NCBI GenBank assembly: GCA_027485615.1
Contig: JAIXQS010000073.1
Coordinates: forward strand, 1-64,000
Source: Verrucomicrobiaceae bacterium
GTDB lineage: Bacteria; Verrucomicrobiota; Verrucomicrobiia; Verrucomicrobiales; Akkermansiaceae
Direction: 5' to 3'
DNA length: 64,000 nt
Shown here: positions 10,474 to 55,670 of the stretch, piece by piece
Layout: every line of letters begins with the position of its first letter
How positions within the stretch are numbered: the first letter of the stretch is position 1
Made by a program: the position numbers and the translations under genes
The notes under the pieces: model-generated
The model's input: the letters and a program-made list of their open reading frames with translations, nothing else
Databases searched by the model: none
Told to the model about the DNA's origin: nothing

Positions 10474-11781
<1,308 letters not shown>

Positions 11782-11834: not shown

Positions 11835-12710
11835 GTGGAAGCGGTGGTTGATTCGCAGTCGCTCCCTCTTTACGTAAGGGGTGTGACCCGACCCGTCGAT
11901 TCGCTCATCGATTTCCTGCACGCCGAACAGGCGCGCGGTCGCAGCCACGTTTTTCTCGACGACAGCGCCCGCGAAGGACTTCGGGATCTCTATATCCGGA
12001 TGAGGAAACCGGTAGCCGTGCCGGCAACTGAGGCACCCGCCTCCGCCCCGGTGGTCAAACAGGACGCCATCGTTTCCGGCAGCGGAAAAGCGGAGCAACT
12101 CGCGGGTCTTCGGAAACAGGCGGAGAACTGGGCTCCCGCCCATGCGCTCGGCACCTTGCGGGAGAAGATGGTCTTCGCAACCGGCAACCCCGACGCAGAG
12201 ATCATGTTCGTCGGCGAGGCACCGGGCTACAACGAGGAAAAAGAGGGTGAGCCTTTCGTCGGCCCGGCGGGACAGAAACTCAACGACATCCTCAAGGCCA
12301 TGGGGATTCAGCGCGAGGACGTTTACATTTCCAATCTCGTCAAGTTCCGCCCGTCGCTTCCCAAGCAAACGACGAACAACCGCAAACCCAGCCCGGAGGA
12401 AATGGCCGCGTGCCTGCCGCTGGTGATGGCGGAAATTTCGGTGGTCCGACCGAAGCTCATCATCGCCCTCGGCGGGACAGCAGCGGAAGGACTACTGGGG
12501 CTTGAAGGAACGGTCGGCGCAATGCGGGACAAATGGCACGACCTTTCCGGCATCCCCGCGCGCGTCACCTATCACCCGAGCTACCTTCTCCAAAGCGGCG
12601 GCTCGAACGATGTGAAGCGCGCGCTCTGGGAAGACATGCTCGCCGCTATGGAAAAACTCGGCATGCCCATCTCCGAGAAGCAGCGCGGCTTTTTCCTGCC
12701 GAAGGGGTGA
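11835..12710 (+). CDS. family-4-like uracil-DNA glycosylase lacking most Fe-S cysteines
   Basis: Removes uracil from DNA in base excision repair, by homology. The family blocks are MFVGEAPGYNEEKEGEPFVGPAGQKLND (motif A area), YISNLVKFRPS, LIIALGGTAAEGLLG, and TYHPSYLLQ (motif B area). Family 4 enzymes normally carry four Cys for a 4Fe-4S cluster. This protein has one Cys in total, in EEMAACLPL. The position usually VKCRPP reads VKFRPS, and the N-terminal CxxC is absent. The first ~85 residues are a divergent, partly low-complexity extension. The first available start is a GTG at 11835; a GTG at 11883 is equally possible. It lies 23 bp ahead of the helicase gene, probably in one operon. Confidence 0.83.
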   Translation: MEAVVDSQSLPLYVRGVTRPVDSLIDFLHAEQARGRSHVFLDDSAREGLRDLYIRMRKPVAVPATEAPASAPVVKQDAIVSGSGKAEQLAGLRKQAENWAPAHALGTLREKMVFATGNPDAEIMFVGEAPGYNEEKEGEPFVGPAGQKLNDILKAMGIQREDVYISNLVKFRPSLPKQTTNNRKPSPEEMAACLPLVMAEISVVRPKLIIALGGTAAEGLLGLEGTVGAMRDKWHDLSGIPARVTYHPSYLLQSGGSNDVKRALWEDMLAAMEKLGMPISEKQRGFFLPKG

Positions 12711-12733
12711 CTTGGGCTCTTGTCTGACATGGA

Positions 12734-15190
12734 ATGAACGCGCCGCACCCCATGATTGAACGCTTGTTCACCGGGCGTGGATGGGAGCCTCATGATTTCC
12801 AACTGGAAACATGGCGTGCCTACGCCGAGGGGAAATCCGGCCTGCTCCATGCGCCCACAGGCACAGGGAAGACCCTCGCCGTCTGGCTGGGGCCGGTCGT
12901 GGAAGCGATGGAGGCCAGCGAAGCGCCGCAAGGCTGCCGCGTGATCTGGCTGACTCCGCTGAGGGCGCTCGCACAGGACACGGCGCGTTCGCTTGCGGAA
13001 CCGCTTCGCGCCCTGGGTAGCGGATTGGAAGTGGCGGTGCGTACCGGTGACACCTCATCCCATCGGAAAGCGAAGCTCCGCGAGCGCCTGCCCTTCGCTC
13101 TCGTCACCACCCCTGAGAGCCTTTCCCTGATGCTCACCTACGAGGATTCCAGTAGCAAACTCGGGCAACTCACCTGCGTGGTGATCGATGAATGGCACGA
13201 GCTCCTCGGCACAAAGCGCGGCGTCCAAACCGAGCTGTGCCTCGCCCGGCTGCGTCATTGGGCGCCGGATCTTCGCGTCTGGGGAGTTTCAGCCACGCTG
13301 GGAAATCTCCCGCAAGCCGCCGAGGTGCTGGGCGGTGCCTCCACAGCGCAAACGTGTCGTGTCGATTCGACGATCAAGCGAGAAATACAGATCCTTACGC
13401 TGATTCCGAAATCCGTGGAAACCTTCCCATGGGGCGGGCATCTCGGTTTGGCGATGGCCGGGCGCGTCGCCAAGTCCCTGCATTTGGTGAAAGCTTCCTT
13501 GGTTTTCACGAACACCCGGTCTCAAAGCGAGCTTTGGTTGCAGGCTTTGCTGGAGGCCGATGCTTCGCTGAAAGATCGGATCGCGATTCACCATGGCTCG
13601 CTGGCTCAGGATGAGCGCCGGGAAACGGAGCAGCTCCTGATGGAGGGAAAATTGCTCGCCGTGGTCTGCACATCCTCGCTTGATCTCGGTCTCGATTTCT
13701 CCTGCATCGAGCAGGTCATCCAGATCGGCAGTCCGAAGGGAGTGGCACGCCTCCTCCAGCGCGCCGGGCGCTCCGGCCACCAACCGGGCAGCACGCCGAA
13801 GTTGCTCTGCGTGCCGACCAACGCGCTTGAGCTGTTAGAGTTCGCCGCCGCACAGGATGCCATCGAAGCCAGGGAAATCGAATCCAAGCGCCCGCTGGAG
13901 CAGCCGCTCGATGTGTTGATCCAGCACGTGACCAGCTGCGCCATCGGCGAGCGTGTCTCGGAGGCGCAGCTATTCGGGGAAGTCCGCTCGACCTATGCAT
14001 ACCGCGCGCTTTCCCCGGAGCACTGGGAATGGGTGCTGGGCTTCATTTCAAACGGCGGCGCCGCTCTCCGCGCTTACCCGCAGTATCACAAGGTCACGCG
14101 GGAAAACGGGTTTCTCCACTTCACGGACAAACGCATGATCCAGCTGCACCGGATGAACATCGGAACGATCACGGGCGATACGGCGGTCAGCTTGCGGTTT
14201 TCAAACGGCCAGCGCGTCGGCAGCGTGGAGGAGGGTTTCATCCGCAAACTGAAACCCGGCTCACCTTTTATCTTCGCGGGGCGCTTGCTGGAGTTGGTGC
14301 GCCTTCACCAGTTGATCGCCACCGTGAAACCCTGCGCACGCAGCAAGGCGCGCGGTGAAATCCCGGTTTGGGCGGGCAGCAAAATGCCCTTGTCCACCGA
14401 GCTTTCCAAAGCCGTCGCCCGGCGGCTTGATGAGGATGCGAAACTCACAGCCCGCCCCGAAACCGATGCAATCAATGACCTGCTGCGCATCCAACGCGCT
14501 TGGTCCGAGGTTCCGAACGACCGGGTTCTTCAGGTCGAACATGCGCGATCCCGGCAGGGCGAGCACCTGTTTTTCTACACCTTCGCCGGCCGCATGGCCA
14601 ACGAAGGGCTCGGTGCCCTCTTCGCGCATCGCCTCAGCGAGGGCAGTCCGCAAAGCATCCAGGTGACGCAGAACGATTACGGATTTTCCCTGACATCCAG
14701 CCGACCGCTCCCGCTCGACGAATCACGGCTCCGTGAGGCGGCTTCACCGGATGACCTGTTAGAAACCCTGATGGATTGCCTCAACACCCATGAACTTTCC
14801 CGCACACGCTTCCGCGAGGTGGCTCGCGTAGCTGGCTTGATCCAACAAATGCAGCCCGGTGACCGCAAAGGCATGCGCCAGATCCAAACCTCCGCCGGCC
14901 TGTTGTTCGAAGTGTTCGGACGCTACGATCCTGAAAATTTGCTCCTCGATCAGTCGCGCCGCGAGATGCTTGAAGGCAGCCTTGAGATCGACCGCTTACT
15001 TCGCGTTCTCCATGAAATTTCCAAAAAGCCCATGCGTCTTATCGAGCTCAAGCGCCTCACTCCGATGGCTTTTCCGCTCTGGGCGGAACGCTTGAATTTT
15101 GTCATCTCCACTCAGGACGCCGCGTCCATATTGGAGGAAATGCTCATCACGTTGAATGCCGAAGCCGATGAAACCCTCCACCATTCCTGA
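12734..15190 (+). CDS. Lhr-like DEXH helicase (ligase-associated DNA damage response type)
   Basis: Large superfamily 2 helicase of 818 residues. The helicase motifs run in order: Q-like HDFQLETWRAY, Walker A APTGTGKTLAVWL, TPLRALAQD, TTPESLSLML, DEWHELLG (DEXH box), VSATLGN, then in the second lobe SLVFTNTRSQSELW, SSLDLGLDF and LLQRAGRSGHQ. A long C-terminal Lhr-type region follows. The length and the PdeM gene overlapping its stop fit the helicase of the ligase-associated DNA repair locus (TIGR04121 type). The usual partners, an ATP-dependent ligase and an exonuclease, are not adjacent here. Confidence 0.9.
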   Translation: MNAPHPMIERLFTGRGWEPHDFQLETWRAYAEGKSGLLHAPTGTGKTLAVWLGPVVEAMEASEAPQGCRVIWLTPLRALAQDTARSLAEPLRALGSGLEVAVRTGDTSSHRKAKLRERLPFALVTTPESLSLMLTYEDSSSKLGQLTCVVIDEWHELLGTKRGVQTELCLARLRHWAPDLRVWGVSATLGNLPQAAEVLGGASTAQTCRVDSTIKREIQILTLIPKSVETFPWGGHLGLAMAGRVAKSLHLVKASLVFTNTRSQSELWLQALLEADASLKDRIAIHHGSLAQDERRETEQLLMEGKLLAVVCTSSLDLGLDFSCIEQVIQIGSPKGVARLLQRAGRSGHQPGSTPKLLCVPTNALELLEFAAAQDAIEAREIESKRPLEQPLDVLIQHVTSCAIGERVSEAQLFGEVRSTYAYRALSPEHWEWVLGFISNGGAALRAYPQYHKVTRENGFLHFTDKRMIQLHRMNIGTITGDTAVSLRFSNGQRVGSVEEGFIRKLKPGSPFIFAGRLLELVRLHQLIATVKPCARSKARGEIPVWAGSKMPLSTELSKAVARRLDEDAKLTARPETDAINDLLRIQRAWSEVPNDRVLQVEHARSRQGEHLFFYTFAGRMANEGLGALFAHRLSEGSPQSIQVTQNDYGFSLTSSRPLPLDESRLREAASPDDLLETLMDCLNTHELSRTRFREVARVAGLIQQMQPGDRKGMRQIQTSAGLLFEVFGRYDPENLLLDQSRREMLEGSLEIDRLLRVLHEISKKPMRLIELKRLTPMAFPLWAERLNFVISTQDAASILEEMLITLNAEADETLHHS

Positions 15191-15827
15191 AGCGGGATCG
15201 CGCCGGATCCGTTTCGCAGGCGAGGATCTCGTGCTTCTCGCGGGACGTGCCGTTTTCTGGCCCGCACGCAGCGCCCTGATGCTGTCCGATGTCCATTTCG
15301 GGAAATCCGCCACCTTTCGCGCCCATGGAATCCCCGTCCCGGAAGGGGAATCGCAGACCGACCTGGATCGCATCACACAGCTTGTGGAACGATATGGAGT
15401 GGATCACCTCGCGATCATAGGTGATTTCTACCACAGCGGTATCGCACTCAGCACCGGCTTGCATGACTCGCTGGCCACATTTCGTGACTCGCTGGATGCC
15501 GAGATCATCCTGGTTCGTGGAAATCACGATCAGACACGGCATGAGCTTCTCCCCATGATTGACCGCCTGGATTGGTCTCCCATCGAGCTTGTCCACGATC
15601 CCGCCGATGCCGCGCCGGAAAAGCCCACCATCGCCGGACACTTGCATCCGCTCTGCCGGATCGGACGAGCCGGCCGGGCATCGAGGCTACCTTGCTTCCT
15701 GCAAAAGGATAACCTTCTCGTTCTTCCCGCCTTCGGCACGTTCACCGCAGGCCACATCATGAAAGCAAAGGCGGGACAAACGCTCTACCCCATCGCCAAG
15801 GAAACGGTCTTCGAAGATCCGCGCTGA
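15156..15827 (+). CDS. pdeM: ligase-associated DNA damage response endonuclease PdeM
   Basis: Calcineurin-like metallophosphoesterase of about 220 residues. The metal-binding blocks are MLSDVHFGKSATFR, IIGDFYHSG, LVRGNHDQT and IAGHLHP. This small form with a PALGTFTAGH-type ending matches the PdeM family, which travels with an Lhr-like helicase in bacterial DNA repair loci. Its start overlaps the helicase stop by about 35 bp, so the two are co-translated; an ATG at 15168 is an alternative start. It ends directly against the convergent LOG gene. Confidence 0.87.
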   Translation: MPKPMKPSTIPEAGSRRIRFAGEDLVLLAGRAVFWPARSALMLSDVHFGKSATFRAHGIPVPEGESQTDLDRITQLVERYGVDHLAIIGDFYHSGIALSTGLHDSLATFRDSLDAEIILVRGNHDQTRHELLPMIDRLDWSPIELVHDPADAAPEKPTIAGHLHPLCRIGRAGRASRLPCFLQKDNLLVLPAFGTFTAGHIMKAKAGQTLYPIAKETVFEDPR

Positions 15828-16646
15828 TTACCTCACAGCTCTCTCGCCCAATACCGGCATCGGTTTCGGAACTTGTTTCCGGCGCAACCCGAACTGCCTC
15901 ACCGCATTGCGCTGGAGGTGCGCCTTCGCCTCCTCGACGCTATCCGTGAAAAAGATCAGATCCGGATCCTGCGGGCTGATCACACCCTCTTCCGCCATTC
16001 GGTAAACGAAATCCATCAGCGGCTGCCAGAAATCCCGCCCCATGAGGATGATGGGGAAATTCTTCAGTTTCCCGGTCTGGATCAGGGTCATCGTCTCGAA
16101 CATCTCGTCGAGTGTGCCCGCCCCTCCGGGCATAACCACGAAAGCGTAGGAGTATTTCACCAGCATCGTCTTGCGCGTGAAAAAATAGCGCATGTTCACG
16201 GAGCGGTGTACGTAGGGGTTCACATGCTGCTCAAAGGGCAGTTCGATATTCACCCCGATCGAACTCCCACCCGCCTCGTAGGCTCCTTGGTTCGCCGCCT
16301 GCATGATGCCCGGCCCGCCGCCGGTGAGAACCGTGAAACCCAGCTCGGAACACGCCTCGCCCATCTCGCGGGCGAGTTCATAGTAACGTGTCCCGGGCTT
16401 GGTCCGGGCGGAGCCGAAAATGGTCACGCAGGGCCCGACGAAATGCAGGATACGGTAAGCGCGGATGAAATCGAGACCCACGCGAAACAGTGAGACCATG
16501 TCATTGAAGCGCGAGCGGGGCCCGGCGAGCCATGAGCTTTCTGCTGTCTCCAGTTCGAACCGTGCCTGTTGCCGGATATCCTCTTCGGTGATCTCGAGGT
16601 CTTCCGTGACTTCCGGACAACCCGGACAGGGTTTCTTATCGCTCAT
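15828..16646 (-). CDS. LOG family protein (TIGR00730)
   Basis: About 272 residues. The Rossmann-like LOG core shows VTIFGSARTKPGT, VLTGGGPGIMQAANQGA and VMPGGAGTLDEMFE; the last two are the family signature for nucleotide 5'-monophosphate phosphoribohydrolases. Related enzymes release cytokinin-type or ordinary bases from nucleotide monophosphates. An N-terminal extension of about 70 residues with a CPGCPE motif is unusual and of unknown role. The stop abuts that of pdeM on the opposite strand. Confidence 0.88.
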   Translation of the reverse strand: MSDKKPCPGCPEVTEDLEITEEDIRQQARFELETAESSWLAGPRSRFNDMVSLFRVGLDFIRAYRILHFVGPCVTIFGSARTKPGTRYYELAREMGEACSELGFTVLTGGGPGIMQAANQGAYEAGGSSIGVNIELPFEQHVNPYVHRSVNMRYFFTRKTMLVKYSYAFVVMPGGAGTLDEMFETMTLIQTGKLKNFPIILMGRDFWQPLMDFVYRMAEEGVISPQDPDLIFFTDSVEEAKAHLQRNAVRQFGLRRKQVPKPMPVLGERAVR

Positions 16647-42249: not shown

Positions 42250-43647
42250 TCAGAATTCGGTTTCCGAGCCCAGCTTTCCGATCCCGACGTTACCGCCCGC
42301 GCCGTTCAGGGCGGCCTGGAGGCTTTGGGCGGAATCGGGTTCGCCATGGACAAGCCATGTCCTGGTCTTAGGGCCGGTGATGCGAGCGTAGTAATCGAGC
42401 AGCTCCGAGTGGTCGGCATGGCCGGAAAAGGAGTCGATGGTCTCGATGTGCGCGCGTACATGGAAAGTGTCGCCGAGGATGTTGACGTCCTTCGCGCCGT
42501 CGCGGATTTTCCTGCCCAGGGTCCCTTCGGCGCAGTAGCCGACGAAAAGAATGGTCGTCTTTGGGTTCTCGATGTTGTTGCGGAGGTGATGGAGGATGCG
42601 TCCGGCTTCGCACATGCCGGAGGCGGAAATGATGATCGCCACTCCCTCGATGTCGTTGAGTTCCTTGGAGCCTTTGACGGAACGGACGAGAGTCAGCTCC
42701 TCGAAGCCGAACGGGTTCTGCTTCTCGAAGAGCGTGCGATAGACCTCGTCGCTGAATGACTCGGGGTGCAGGCGGTAGATCTCGGTGGCGCTCACAGCAA
42801 GCGGGCTGTCCACGTAGACGGGGATGTGCGGGATCTGGTTTTTGAGAAGAAGATCGTTGAGGTAGAAGAGAATCTGCTGTGTCCGCTCGACCGCGAAGGC
42901 AGGGATGAGGATTTTGCCTCCGCGCCTCACGGCCTGCCGGATCACATCGGCAAAGCGGTCGTCGATGCCCGGCGCCATGTCGTGCTCGCGGCCCCCATAC
43001 GTGCTTTCCATCAGGAGGAAATCGACATCCTCCACCGGCACGGGATCGCGCAGCACCTCGTTGTTGCCCCTGCCCACATCTCCGGAAAAAAGGAAACGCT
43101 TCTTGCTGGAGTCGGACTGATCCGTGACGTCGAGGATGATCTGGGCACTGCCAAGAATGTGCCCTGCATCGACAAAAGTGAGTTCCACCCCGTCGGAGAT
43201 CATGATGGGCCTTTCGTAACCGATGGTGACGAACTGCCTCAGGCATTTCTCGGCGTCGATTTCATCGTATAGCGGCTCCACCTGATCCAGACCCTTCCGG
43301 ACGCGGTGCTTGTTGAGCCAGTCGATGTCGCTTTCCTGGATGCGGGCGCAATCGCGGAGCATGATCTGGCACAGGTCACGGGTCGCGTTGGTGGCGAAGA
43401 CCGATCCCTTGAAGCCCTTCTTGGAAAGGTTCGGCAGGTTTCCGCTATGGTCGATGTGCGCGTGGGAAAGCACCACCACATCCACCGACGCGGGATCGAA
43501 GTGAGGGAAGCAGCAGTTGATCTCATACGCGTCCTTGCGATGCCCTTGGTAGAGACCGCAATCCAGAAGGATGCGCTTGCCGTTGATTTCCAGCAGATGC
43601 TGCGAGCCCGTGGTCGTTCCCGCCGCTCCGCAAAACTTGAGTTTCAT
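42250..43647 (-). CDS. beta-CASP metallo-beta-lactamase RNA hydrolase
   Basis: About 465 residues. The MBL fold holds VVVLSHAHIDHSGNLP (HxHxDH), DAGHILGSAQI, FSGDVGRGNNEVL and the beta-CASP block MESTYGG; later GGKILIPAFAVERTQQILFYLNDL, IIISASGMCEAGRI and IDSFSGHADHSELLDY. This matches the YSH1/CPSF73-like RNA nucleases, which process RNA. The start at 43647 begins the family sequence; the frame extends to 43767. Confidence 0.92.
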   Translation of the reverse strand: MKLKFCGAAGTTTGSQHLLEINGKRILLDCGLYQGHRKDAYEINCCFPHFDPASVDVVVLSHAHIDHSGNLPNLSKKGFKGSVFATNATRDLCQIMLRDCARIQESDIDWLNKHRVRKGLDQVEPLYDEIDAEKCLRQFVTIGYERPIMISDGVELTFVDAGHILGSAQIILDVTDQSDSSKKRFLFSGDVGRGNNEVLRDPVPVEDVDFLLMESTYGGREHDMAPGIDDRFADVIRQAVRRGGKILIPAFAVERTQQILFYLNDLLLKNQIPHIPVYVDSPLAVSATEIYRLHPESFSDEVYRTLFEKQNPFGFEELTLVRSVKGSKELNDIEGVAIIISASGMCEAGRILHHLRNNIENPKTTILFVGYCAEGTLGRKIRDGAKDVNILGDTFHVRAHIETIDSFSGHADHSELLDYYARITGPKTRTWLVHGEPDSAQSLQAALNGAGGNVGIGKLGSETEF

Positions 43648-43708
43648 ATGAAATGATCCTCTCCCTGCGCGAGCCCGAAGCAACGAAAAAAGCTTGTTAG
43701 AAGCCGAC

Positions 43709-43936
43709 TCAGAAAAGGTCATCCGCCGTAACGGAGCGCTGTTCGCGGCTGCCGAGCAAGACTGCATGCGTCACCACCGAATGGAGCTCCGCATCGAAAC
43801 GGAAGCTATGGCAGTTCGGGCAGATCGCGGTGGCTTTCCCAACAATCGAATCGCAACCCTCGCAAACCTTATAATTCGAGGGGTTCGAGGCGATCTTAGC
43901 TGCGGTTTCCGCGCGGTTGGGTGGTGGTGTCTGCAT
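43709..43936 (-). CDS. small zinc-ribbon protein
   Basis: 75 residues. The core KVCEGCDSIVGKATAICPNCHSFRFD has CxxC...CxxC, a zinc ribbon. The rest is short and polar. A terminator lies just upstream on its strand, so it has its own promoter, and it is 60 bp before the RNase start. The function is unknown. Confidence 0.72.
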   Translation of the reverse strand: MQTPPPNRAETAAKIASNPSNYKVCEGCDSIVGKATAICPNCHSFRFDAELHSVVTHAVLLGSREQRSVTADDLF

Positions 43937-53654: not shown

Positions 53655-53825
53655 GCGGTTCCAAGGCGGGGCTAGTCTTTGCGCGCCGTGAAAAACAAAG
53701 CGGCACCCTCCGGGAAGCCCTTCGCTAGGGCAGGGAATTGATGGGGAATCCGGTTAGAATCCGGAGCGGTACCGCCACTGTATGGTTTGCGAAAGCAAGC
53801 CGAGCCAGATCGCCAGCCCGGGGAG
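53655..53825 (+). promoter_or_regulatory. cobalamin riboswitch
   Basis: The leader of the TonB receptor has the conserved core GGGAATCCGGTTAGAATCC then GGAGCGGTACCGCCACTGTA around 53743-53783, containing the B12 box GCCACTG. A short arm (TTTGCGAAAGCAAG) and GAGCCAGATCGCC follow. The outer ends are approximate. Adenosylcobalamin binding should turn the receptor off. Confidence 0.88.
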
Positions 53826-53870
53826 TTGTCTAATAAGGCTGCGGAACTCAGCCCGACGGATACCAAAAAC

Positions 53871-55670
53871 ATGACACCACACATAACATCCGGAAAAAAC
53901 CGGACGACAAGGACAAGCCGCGCCATCATCATGGCCACGGCACTCACGCTCGGTGGAATTTCCGCCGAGACGATACGGGAACTCGATGAACTCATCGTCT
54001 CCGCCGTGCGGATGCCGGGCGAGGCTTCGAGAACGACATCGGCGGTGACAGCGCTCGATGCGCGAGAGCTGGAAGAGCGCGGGGTGCTAGATTTAATCGA
54101 AGCACTCAACGAAGTGCCCGGAGTAATCGCTACCTCCACCTCTGCCCAAACAGGGGGCAGCGGCTCGGTGTTCATCCGCGGCACAACTGCCTCTTATTCG
54201 CAGCTCGTGGTAGACGGCATCCGCCTCAGCGACTCGACTGCACCCATGGGGAACTTTTTCTCCGGAGCACGTCTGGATGATTTGGGTAGGATCGAGGTTT
54301 TGCGTGGCGCCCACGCGGCGATCCACGGCGGAGAGGCCATCGGCGGTGTGATCTGGCTGGAAACGGCGCGCGGCGAGGGTGATCCCGAGACGCGCCTTCG
54401 CATCGAGGGCGGATCGTTCGATTCGCTCAACGGTCACCTTGCCCATTCCGGAAAGGAAGGCCCGTTCTCGTGGTTCCTCAGCGGAGGTTACGACGGCACA
54501 CACAACGACGTGGAAAGTCAGGACTTCGACCAAGCCCGCGCCGCGCTGCGCATGGAATGGGCACAATCGGAGAACCTCACGCTCGGCATGACCTACCGCG
54601 CGGTGGACTCACGTTTCGGACCTTTCGAGTATTACGGGCCGAACATCGATCACACCGATAGCGGACTAGCCACGATCTATGCGAATGCTCAACTTGCACC
54701 CGGATGGCTAGCGCGTTTCACACTAGGAAATTACAGGGAAAGCTACGACAACGACTCGACCTTCGGAAATTTCGGAACCGATCTCGACCGCATCGTGCTT
54801 TCCACGGATCAATCCTATGAAATCAATCGCCACCATCGCTTGTTGGGTGGCGCTTTCCTAGAGCATTCGATTTTCTCCAACACGATCGGCTCCGATTCCG
54901 ACGAATACCGCTACGGCGCGCACCTCGGCTGGGAGTGGACGCCTGTGGAAAGCGTGGTCACCGACGCCGTCGTCCGCTGGGAGGATTATGCGGATTACGA
55001 CGACCAAGTGACGTGGCGCATCGGTGCTTCGTGGCAGGCATTGGAGAAAACCCGTCTTCGTGCGGGGCTGGGAAAAGCTTTCCGTACGCCTACTTTCCTG
55101 GATCTTTACGGCACCACCTTTGGAGCGGGAAATCCTAACCTGAACGCCGAGGAAAGCATCGGCTGGGATTTCGGAGTCGAACAAGGTGTCGGCGAAAACC
55201 ACATGGTCTCCGCGAATTGGTTCGAGAACTCCATCGCAAACCGCATCCGCTCCTCACCCACTCCGCCAGTGAACCTCCCTAGCGACACGCCGACACGCGG
55301 TCTCGAATTCGCATTGAACGGAGCGCTCGGCGAACATCTTGCCTATCGACTCGCATGGACATGGCTCGGTGCGTCTCTTGATGATCAGCCAAAGAATACC
55401 GCCACCTCATCCATCGACTGGCAGCCTACGGCAAATCTGCTTTTAGGCATCGGCGCGAGCTACGTGGACGAGCGCTCCTACGGCGGTGCTCCGCTCGACG
55501 ATTACCTGCTACTACGCCTCTACGGCAGCTACGAACTCAGGGAAAACGTCACGCTCCATGCGCGCATTGAGAATCTTGCAAACGAAAGCTACGAGCTTTC
55601 CCACTTTTTCGGCCTGCGCATACCGGGTGCAGGACTTGGGTTCTTCGCGGGCGTGACGGTGGAATTCTGA
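53871..55670 (+). CDS. BtuB-like TonB-dependent receptor
   Basis: About 599 residues. A long, atypical N-terminal segment precedes a helix (SRAIIMATALTLGGISAE), then a TonB-box-like ELDELIVSAV. The plug domain has EALNEVPGVIATST, SVFIRGTTASYSQLVVDGIRL and RIEVLRGAHAAIHGGEAIGG. The beta-barrel closes with GLGFFAGVTVEF (terminal Phe). The cobalamin riboswitch directly upstream supports corrinoid uptake. No btuFCD genes are next to it. The ATG at 53871 follows the riboswitch; the frame is open from 53787. Confidence 0.9.
   Translation: MTPHITSGKNRTTRTSRAIIMATALTLGGISAETIRELDELIVSAVRMPGEASRTTSAVTALDARELEERGVLDLIEALNEVPGVIATSTSAQTGGSGSVFIRGTTASYSQLVVDGIRLSDSTAPMGNFFSGARLDDLGRIEVLRGAHAAIHGGEAIGGVIWLETARGEGDPETRLRIEGGSFDSLNGHLAHSGKEGPFSWFLSGGYDGTHNDVESQDFDQARAALRMEWAQSENLTLGMTYRAVDSRFGPFEYYGPNIDHTDSGLATIYANAQLAPGWLARFTLGNYRESYDNDSTFGNFGTDLDRIVLSTDQSYEINRHHRLLGGAFLEHSIFSNTIGSDSDEYRYGAHLGWEWTPVESVVTDAVVRWEDYADYDDQVTWRIGASWQALEKTRLRAGLGKAFRTPTFLDLYGTTFGAGNPNLNAEESIGWDFGVEQGVGENHMVSANWFENSIANRIRSSPTPPVNLPSDTPTRGLEFALNGALGEHLAYRLAWTWLGASLDDQPKNTATSSIDWQPTANLLLGIGASYVDERSYGGAPLDDYLLLRLYGSYELRENVTLHARIENLANESYELSHFFGLRIPGAGLGFFAGVTVEF

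Follow-up and report, generated by a model that had tools for sequence, protein, structure and literature searches.

Closest described systems

A four-gene cluster for the DNA ligase LigB, an Lhr-core helicase, the endonuclease MPE and a metallo-beta-lactamase exonuclease was described by Ejaz and Shuman in 2018 (as cited in PMC10140301 and PMC8301817). Of 319 genomes, 276 are reported to have MPE close to bLhr genes (PMC8301817), an Lhr helicase and two nucleases are reported as neighbours of LigB (PMC10799422), and PMC10140301 gives the lesion targeted by the cluster as not known. Exonuclease–ligase fusions as such are already published, having been described in Opitutus terrae and in Antarctic Dry Valley metagenomes (PMC10140301). 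Escherichia coli Lhr unites helicase and uracil-DNA glycosylase (UDG) in a single polypeptide, with the UDG being stimulated by the helicase domains (PMC10953399). Here we describe a locus in which genes for a UDG, an Lhr-core helicase and PdeM, an MPE homologue, follow one another in a stretch of 64,000 nucleotides from Verrucomicrobiaceae bacterium (family Akkermansiaceae; GenBank assembly GCA_027485615.1, contig JAIXQS010000073.1, positions 1 to 64,000), which was analysed as a whole and is referred to below as the window. The window's own draft genome (G000) comprises 3.45 Mb in 179 contigs and is 94.05% complete. We consider it probable that a helicase–PdeM cassette moved behind a resident UDG gene and that the repair set is split over two loci; what the locus presents is a familiar repair pair at a new position, and mostly a matter of ordinary rearrangement.

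A UDG–helicase–PdeM locus

An initial annotation, made from the sequence alone, had proposed tightly spaced genes for the three proteins on the forward strand and had noted that ligase and exonuclease are missing there. Both points were confirmed by the open reading frames (ORFs) and by hidden Markov model searches, in which all three products exceeded the cut-offs of their families. The UDG gene (11883–12710; PF03167) encodes a protein of family-4 type with 154.1 bits to TIGR00758 (cut-off 125.3); its ORF is open from a GTG at 11835, the start at 11883 being the likelier one to judge from relatives (ATG in G365; GTG in G460, G459 and G428). After a junction of 23 bp (12711–12733) follows the gene for an 818-aa DEXH helicase of the ligase-associated type (12734–15190), which carries WH_Lhr and DEAD_assoc domains and scores 991.7 bits against TIGR04121 (curated cut-off 850). 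Its 3′ end overlaps the PdeM gene (15168–15827; 193.5 bits to TIGR04123, curated cut-off 150), the ORF of which is open from 15156 and likely starts with the ATG at 15168 (the beginning MKPS is also found in L243, L245 and L246). The PdeM product matches the structure of Pseudomonas putida MPE (6nvp) with an E-value of 4.5e-35 and contains the metal-site motifs DVHFGK, GDF, GNHD and GHLHP.

No ligase or exonuclease gene lies beside these three genes. The flanking genes, both on the reverse strand, are xylA for xylose isomerase on the left (10474–11781; 669.3 bits to TIGR02630), which is divergent from the UDG gene, and a LOG-family gene on the right (15828–16646; 159.9 bits to TIGR00730), the 3′ end of which abuts the PdeM stop codon. 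The locus resembles the LigB/Lhr-core/MPE/exonuclease cluster in that its helicase and PdeM score as members and have overlapping genes, but departs from it in that ligase and exonuclease are encoded, in relatives, by one fused gene elsewhere and in that a UDG gene lies upstream.

Insertion of the helicase–PdeM pair between resident genes

In a sample of 73 genomes of the genus, the UDG was matched in 70 and the helicase in 25. The two genes are adjacent in five genomes only (G000, G416, G460, G459 and G365), which form a small clade and all have a UDG–helicase gap of 18–23 bp; in the other 20 of the 25 helicase-bearing genomes the helicase lies apart from the UDG. Among 30 UDG loci of the genus, the gene on that side of the UDG was LOG in 19, the helicase in five and neither in six, and xylA was found beside the UDG in 11. 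In seven relatives xylA, UDG and LOG form a group that lacks the helicase, with UDG and LOG at most ∼140 bp apart. In G428, a mere few bases separate the latter two genes, and the LOG 3′ end has nearly the same sequence as that following the PdeM stop in G000. Because UDG and LOG are neighbours in relatives without the helicase, and because the LOG end of G428 matches, it follows that these two are residents between which the helicase–PdeM pair was inserted. The UDG had initially been thought to take the upstream place of the ligase and exonuclease. This is not supported, since the UDG adjoins xylA and LOG in relatives that have no helicase; it is the resident gene behind which the pair arrived.

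To place this arrangement in a wider context, gene order was compared across the order Verrucomicrobiales. PdeM exceeded the cut-off in 60 of 288 genomes, G000 included (it was matched in 190 genomes, and the 130 below the cut-off were kept outside the locus counts). The other 59 PdeM loci and one helicase locus from another order (G134), 60 in all, were examined for UDG, helicase, PdeM, exonuclease and ligase within ∼8 kb, or less on short contigs. Helicase–PdeM without an adjacent ligase was the commonest layout in the order (28 of the 60 loci, that is 27 of the 59 from the order and G134); 22 of these 27 order genomes have an ATP ligase scoring >100 bits elsewhere, the exceptions being G153, G200, G205, G343 and G366. 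PdeM stood without this helicase in the examined stretch at 23 loci (L066–L073, L075 and L078 among them), some of which are on short contigs. Exonuclease, ligase, helicase and PdeM followed one another in one direction at four loci, the fusion was nearby in another layout at two, PdeM preceded the helicase at two, and UDG–helicase–PdeM was seen at one (G365). Searches with family-4 queries revealed no UDG at the other 59 of the 60 loci (23 of those also without the helicase) or at 17 named loci outside the clade. The idea that the UDG is a wider partner of this helicase family was therefore rejected, since the examined loci from outside the clade did not show the pairing. The comparison shows that the helicase–PdeM half and the exonuclease–ligase half are often apart across one order and can be inherited separately. 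The Dry Valley loci are likewise described as dispersed and with little synteny (PMC10140301).

The exonuclease–ligase fusion in relatives

In genomes of the order, the exonuclease and the ligase are usually encoded in one open frame of ∼900 aa. The 898-aa fusion of G365 has its nuclease part at residues 7–314 and its ligase domains at residues 350–895, a metallo-beta-lactamase nuclease being followed by LigB as in the O. terrae and Dry Valley fusions (PMC10140301). With 204 bits (325 required) and 283 bits (400 required) it falls short of both equivalog cut-offs, and fusion genes are for this reason easily missed. A keyword search of the literature for such a fusion in Verrucomicrobia gave no match, although most subscription papers lay outside its coverage and absence is not proven. 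All four other genomes with the layout of the window carry the fusion, at a locus other than that of helicase and PdeM: it is whole in G365 and G459, and contig ends interrupt it in G416 and G460, the piece in G416 comprising the N-terminal 236 residues with 93% identity to G365.

The neighbourhoods of the fusion differ among close relatives (L127, L174, L123, L186, L183, L187, L184, L185), the types being 175-aa gene/fusion/HAD/pdxH, pduO/fusion/HAD and trpE/fusion/uvrC. The order 175-aa gene/fusion/HAD/pdxH/774-aa gene is intact in G338 and is repeated, with a truncated fusion, in G368. The left part of this block is kept in G416 and G428 and the right part in G365 and G459, and the fusion of G460 is flanked by trpE and uvrC.

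The fusion is also found in shortened form. In 11 genomes of the genus the match stops near residue 546–590, so that the nuclease and the DNA-binding part of the ligase are kept and the catalytic ligase domain is gone, and three further genomes have the nuclease part only, in 373-aa frames; L170–L173 and L176 were inspected, and some of these cases may be frameshifts. In G288 (C1:56631–59191, C11:955120–957792), an unfused exonuclease and ligase pair exceeding the cut-offs is present as well as the fused gene.

Different histories of the two halves

In the helicase tree, the five-genome clade groups with G424, Roseibacillus and Haloferula (support 100/100), and 16 other helicases of the genus fall apart from the clade and form no single clade. 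In the fusion tree, the clade's fusion groups with the genus members G347 and G338 (100/100), and G424, Roseibacillus and Haloferula are separate (100/100). As judged from these two trees, the halves of the repair set, helicase–PdeM on the one hand and the fusion on the other, have different histories; in comparison with the O. terrae and Dry Valley fusions, the fusion is here contrasted with a split helicase–PdeM pair, to which the trees give a separate history. Complete fusion–helicase–PdeM operons with overlapping or nearly overlapping genes are present in Roseibacillus and Haloferula rosea KCTC 22201 (L248, L249), and in G424 the helicase contig and the fusion-bearing contig share an exact end of 109 bp, which implies a complete operon. 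The 23 bp preceding the helicase in G000 contain the 9-nt sequence CTTGTCTGA; in Roseibacillus, the same 9 nt form the 3′ end of the fusion gene and lie almost equally far from the helicase start.

We propose that a two-gene helicase–PdeM cassette came from a complete operon of the Haloferula/Roseibacillus/G424 type and, in an ancestor common to the small clade, was inserted into the narrow space separating UDG from LOG. The four activities would then have been split, with helicase and PdeM encoded here and a single fused protein from another locus supplying the exonuclease and the LigB-type ligase. The cassette most likely rides on the UDG transcript. To judge from their families, the Lhr-core helicase would move 3′–5′ on single-stranded DNA and open damaged DNA, PdeM would nick single-stranded DNA, the metallo-beta-lactamase exonuclease would trim and the ligase would seal. 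The UDG would act in ordinary uracil base-excision repair, co-expressed by virtue of its position and not as a replacement part. The gene identities, the insertion between UDG and LOG and the separate histories of the halves are shown by the data; co-transcription, a fusion gene in the organism of the window and the sequence of the biochemical steps are inferred.

A UDG without three of the four iron–sulphur cysteines

The UDG and its orthologues in the genus (30 in all: the window gene at 11883–12710 and those at loci L138–L166) were compared with the Thermus enzyme as reference. The catalytic motifs GEAPG, PFVG and HPS are present in 30 of 30 and the Asn in 29, as in the family-4 UDGs of Thermus (1ui0) and T. 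maritima (1l9g), and UDG activity is likely from these motifs. Unlike in those enzymes, the first three iron–sulphur (Fe-S) cysteines are replaced by Trp, Ala/Val and Phe/Tyr in all 30 proteins; the fourth cysteine is kept in 29. By score and catalytic motifs the protein belongs to family 4, but it does not have the four cysteines of the 4Fe-4S cluster. Nothing clear was found in the literature on a family-4 UDG without Fe-S, the coverage lacking most subscription papers, so that absence is not proven. UdgX was considered and rejected: motif A of UdgX is GEQPG (PMC10359453) and that of the present protein is GEAPG, and TIGR03914 gave 139.4 bits against a cut-off of 189.95.

The fusion in the genome of the window

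G000 contains one helicase match at E ≤ 1e-60 and one PdeM. The idea of another standard operon in G000 was rejected, none being found (single helicase, single PdeM, no ligase); the combination of a standard operon elsewhere with a second helicase–PdeM pair, which the initial annotation held would speak against its reading, was not found in the draft. Searches for the TIGR04122 exonuclease gave merely two weak matches (38 and 35 bits, cut-off 325). A metallo-beta-lactamase protein encoded in the window (42250–43767) was rejected as the missing exonuclease, with 35–41 bits to TIGR04122; it scores 419 and 315 bits against two beta-CASP models, both below cut-off, and other genomes contain matches of similar weakness.

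Several features of the assembly bear on the whereabouts of the fusion, which is absent from the draft. On contig C162 (7186 bases), the left flank (307-aa gene, vsr) runs into the contig end: the contig stops 572 bp past the last gene common with G416, and the fusion of G416 begins 1466 bp past that gene. The rest of this stretch of G416 has no match in the G000 assembly. Neither has uvrC, the neighbour of the fusion in G460 and a gene rarely lost by bacteria; the sequence beyond uvrC in G460 was found on C45, 2.2 kb from the contig end, and the C45 stretch preceding it has no match to G460. Since uvrC is missing, as are pdxH and the 175-aa neighbour, and C162 ends at the expected site, we favour, with reasonable confidence, an assembly gap over loss of the fusion in G000. 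The argument is not conclusive because the site of the fusion differs among relatives, which have several fusion neighbourhoods. The vsr gene on C162 (L238; 6604–7113) codes for a Vsr mismatch endonuclease (129 bits to TIGR00632), of which only short matches are kept in G428.

Alternative explanations

Several observations weigh against the proposed move of the cassette and the split of the repair set. Agreement between helicase tree and genera is generally lacking (G338, G440 and G222 stray too), and for this reason lateral moves are not special to this clade. CTTGTCTGA may be a remnant or scar of the original operon, but it is short and was noticed after the fact. A promoter and terminator scan of the locus was no better than shuffled sequences and hence uninformative on co-transcription. 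In G000, the TIGR04120 ligase gave no match, the fused protein of a relative used as query gave a single match of 18.6 bits, and the ancestral-looking block 175-aa gene/fusion/HAD/pdxH had no DNA match. The 774-aa gene of the right flank is assembled inside a 61-kb contig (C127) with an unrelated gene in the place of pdxH, and the pduO side is assembled on C120 without the fusion. Either a deletion removed the whole block, or the block moved and now lies in sequence missing from the assembly; with one flank assembled without pdxH, HAD and fusion, a gap becomes less likely and loss likelier. In a true reduction, the species would have lost the exonuclease–ligase gene, and the partners of helicase, PdeM and UDG would be the housekeeping ligase together with other nucleases. 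The lack of any ligase match in a genome that is 94% complete speaks for this, as do the shortened fusions of the genus (11 genomes, with the exonuclease part alone in three) and the two flanks of the G365/G459-type site on C120 and C127, assembled as a block deletion would leave them. Nevertheless, the fusion is carried, whole or cut by contig ends, by all four other genomes of the same layout, C162 ends short of the expected fusion start, and the missing uvrC points to missing sequence, so that we hold true reduction to be rather unlikely. The initial annotation had spoken of a reduced or altered repair locus. Altered it is, ligase and exonuclease being absent and a UDG gene lying upstream; for the clade it is not reduced, given the fusion elsewhere in the four other genomes, and in G000 itself one expected site lies at a contig end and another is assembled without the fusion.

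Functional recruitment, in which the UDG would recognise the lesion and form with the Lhr-core helicase a two-protein counterpart of E. coli Lhr, draws on the coupling of helicase and UDG in the latter, with its helicase domains stimulating the UDG (PMC10953399), and on the UDG–helicase order and spacing kept in five of five cassette-bearing genomes. In both cases an Lhr-type helicase is linked to a UDG, and by this analogy a functional link is possible. However, the genes are separate here, the 818-aa protein is Lhr-core only, without the UDG-bearing C-terminal extension of 600–700 aa found in E. coli and without any further Pfam domain, and the UDG is of family-4 type and not an AlkZ-like C-terminal domain as in Lhr. 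The five genomes are, moreover, close relatives, most helicase-bearing genomes of the genus and the loci examined outside the clade do not have the pairing, and the resident xylA–UDG–LOG block accounts for the gene order. Recruitment is accordingly improbable in our view. Still a little more speculative is the idea that the insertion was kept since it coupled the Fe-S-free UDG to helicase and PdeM in a three-protein, uracil-directed unit, a split-gene counterpart of the E. coli Lhr-UDG, with the fusion acting in trans. A defence or mobile-island function instead of general repair might be suggested by matches of the helicase to the PADLOC defence helicases BrxHI, DpdJ and SngC and by the apparent movement of the helicase–PdeM pair in the trees; yet UDG, PdeM and the fusion have no PADLOC match at E ≤ 1e-10, TIGR04121 is by far the better fit for the helicase (992 bits) and the direct neighbours are resident genes, and we give this explanation hardly any credence.

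Other features of the window

A cobalamin riboswitch (Rfam, 42 bits) was detected at 53695–53835, overlapping the 5′ part of an ORF at 53787–55670. The best NCBIfam match of the latter is the TonB-dependent B12 receptor (172 bits, below cut-off).

Implications

The UDG neighbour serves mainly as a warning against inferring function when an adjacency is new and comes from a single genome; for this repair set, gene order taken by itself is misleading. The separate inheritance of its two halves argues against an obligate four-gene unit. The natural variants (fused, split, with shortened ligase) are material for finding which damage the pathway handles.

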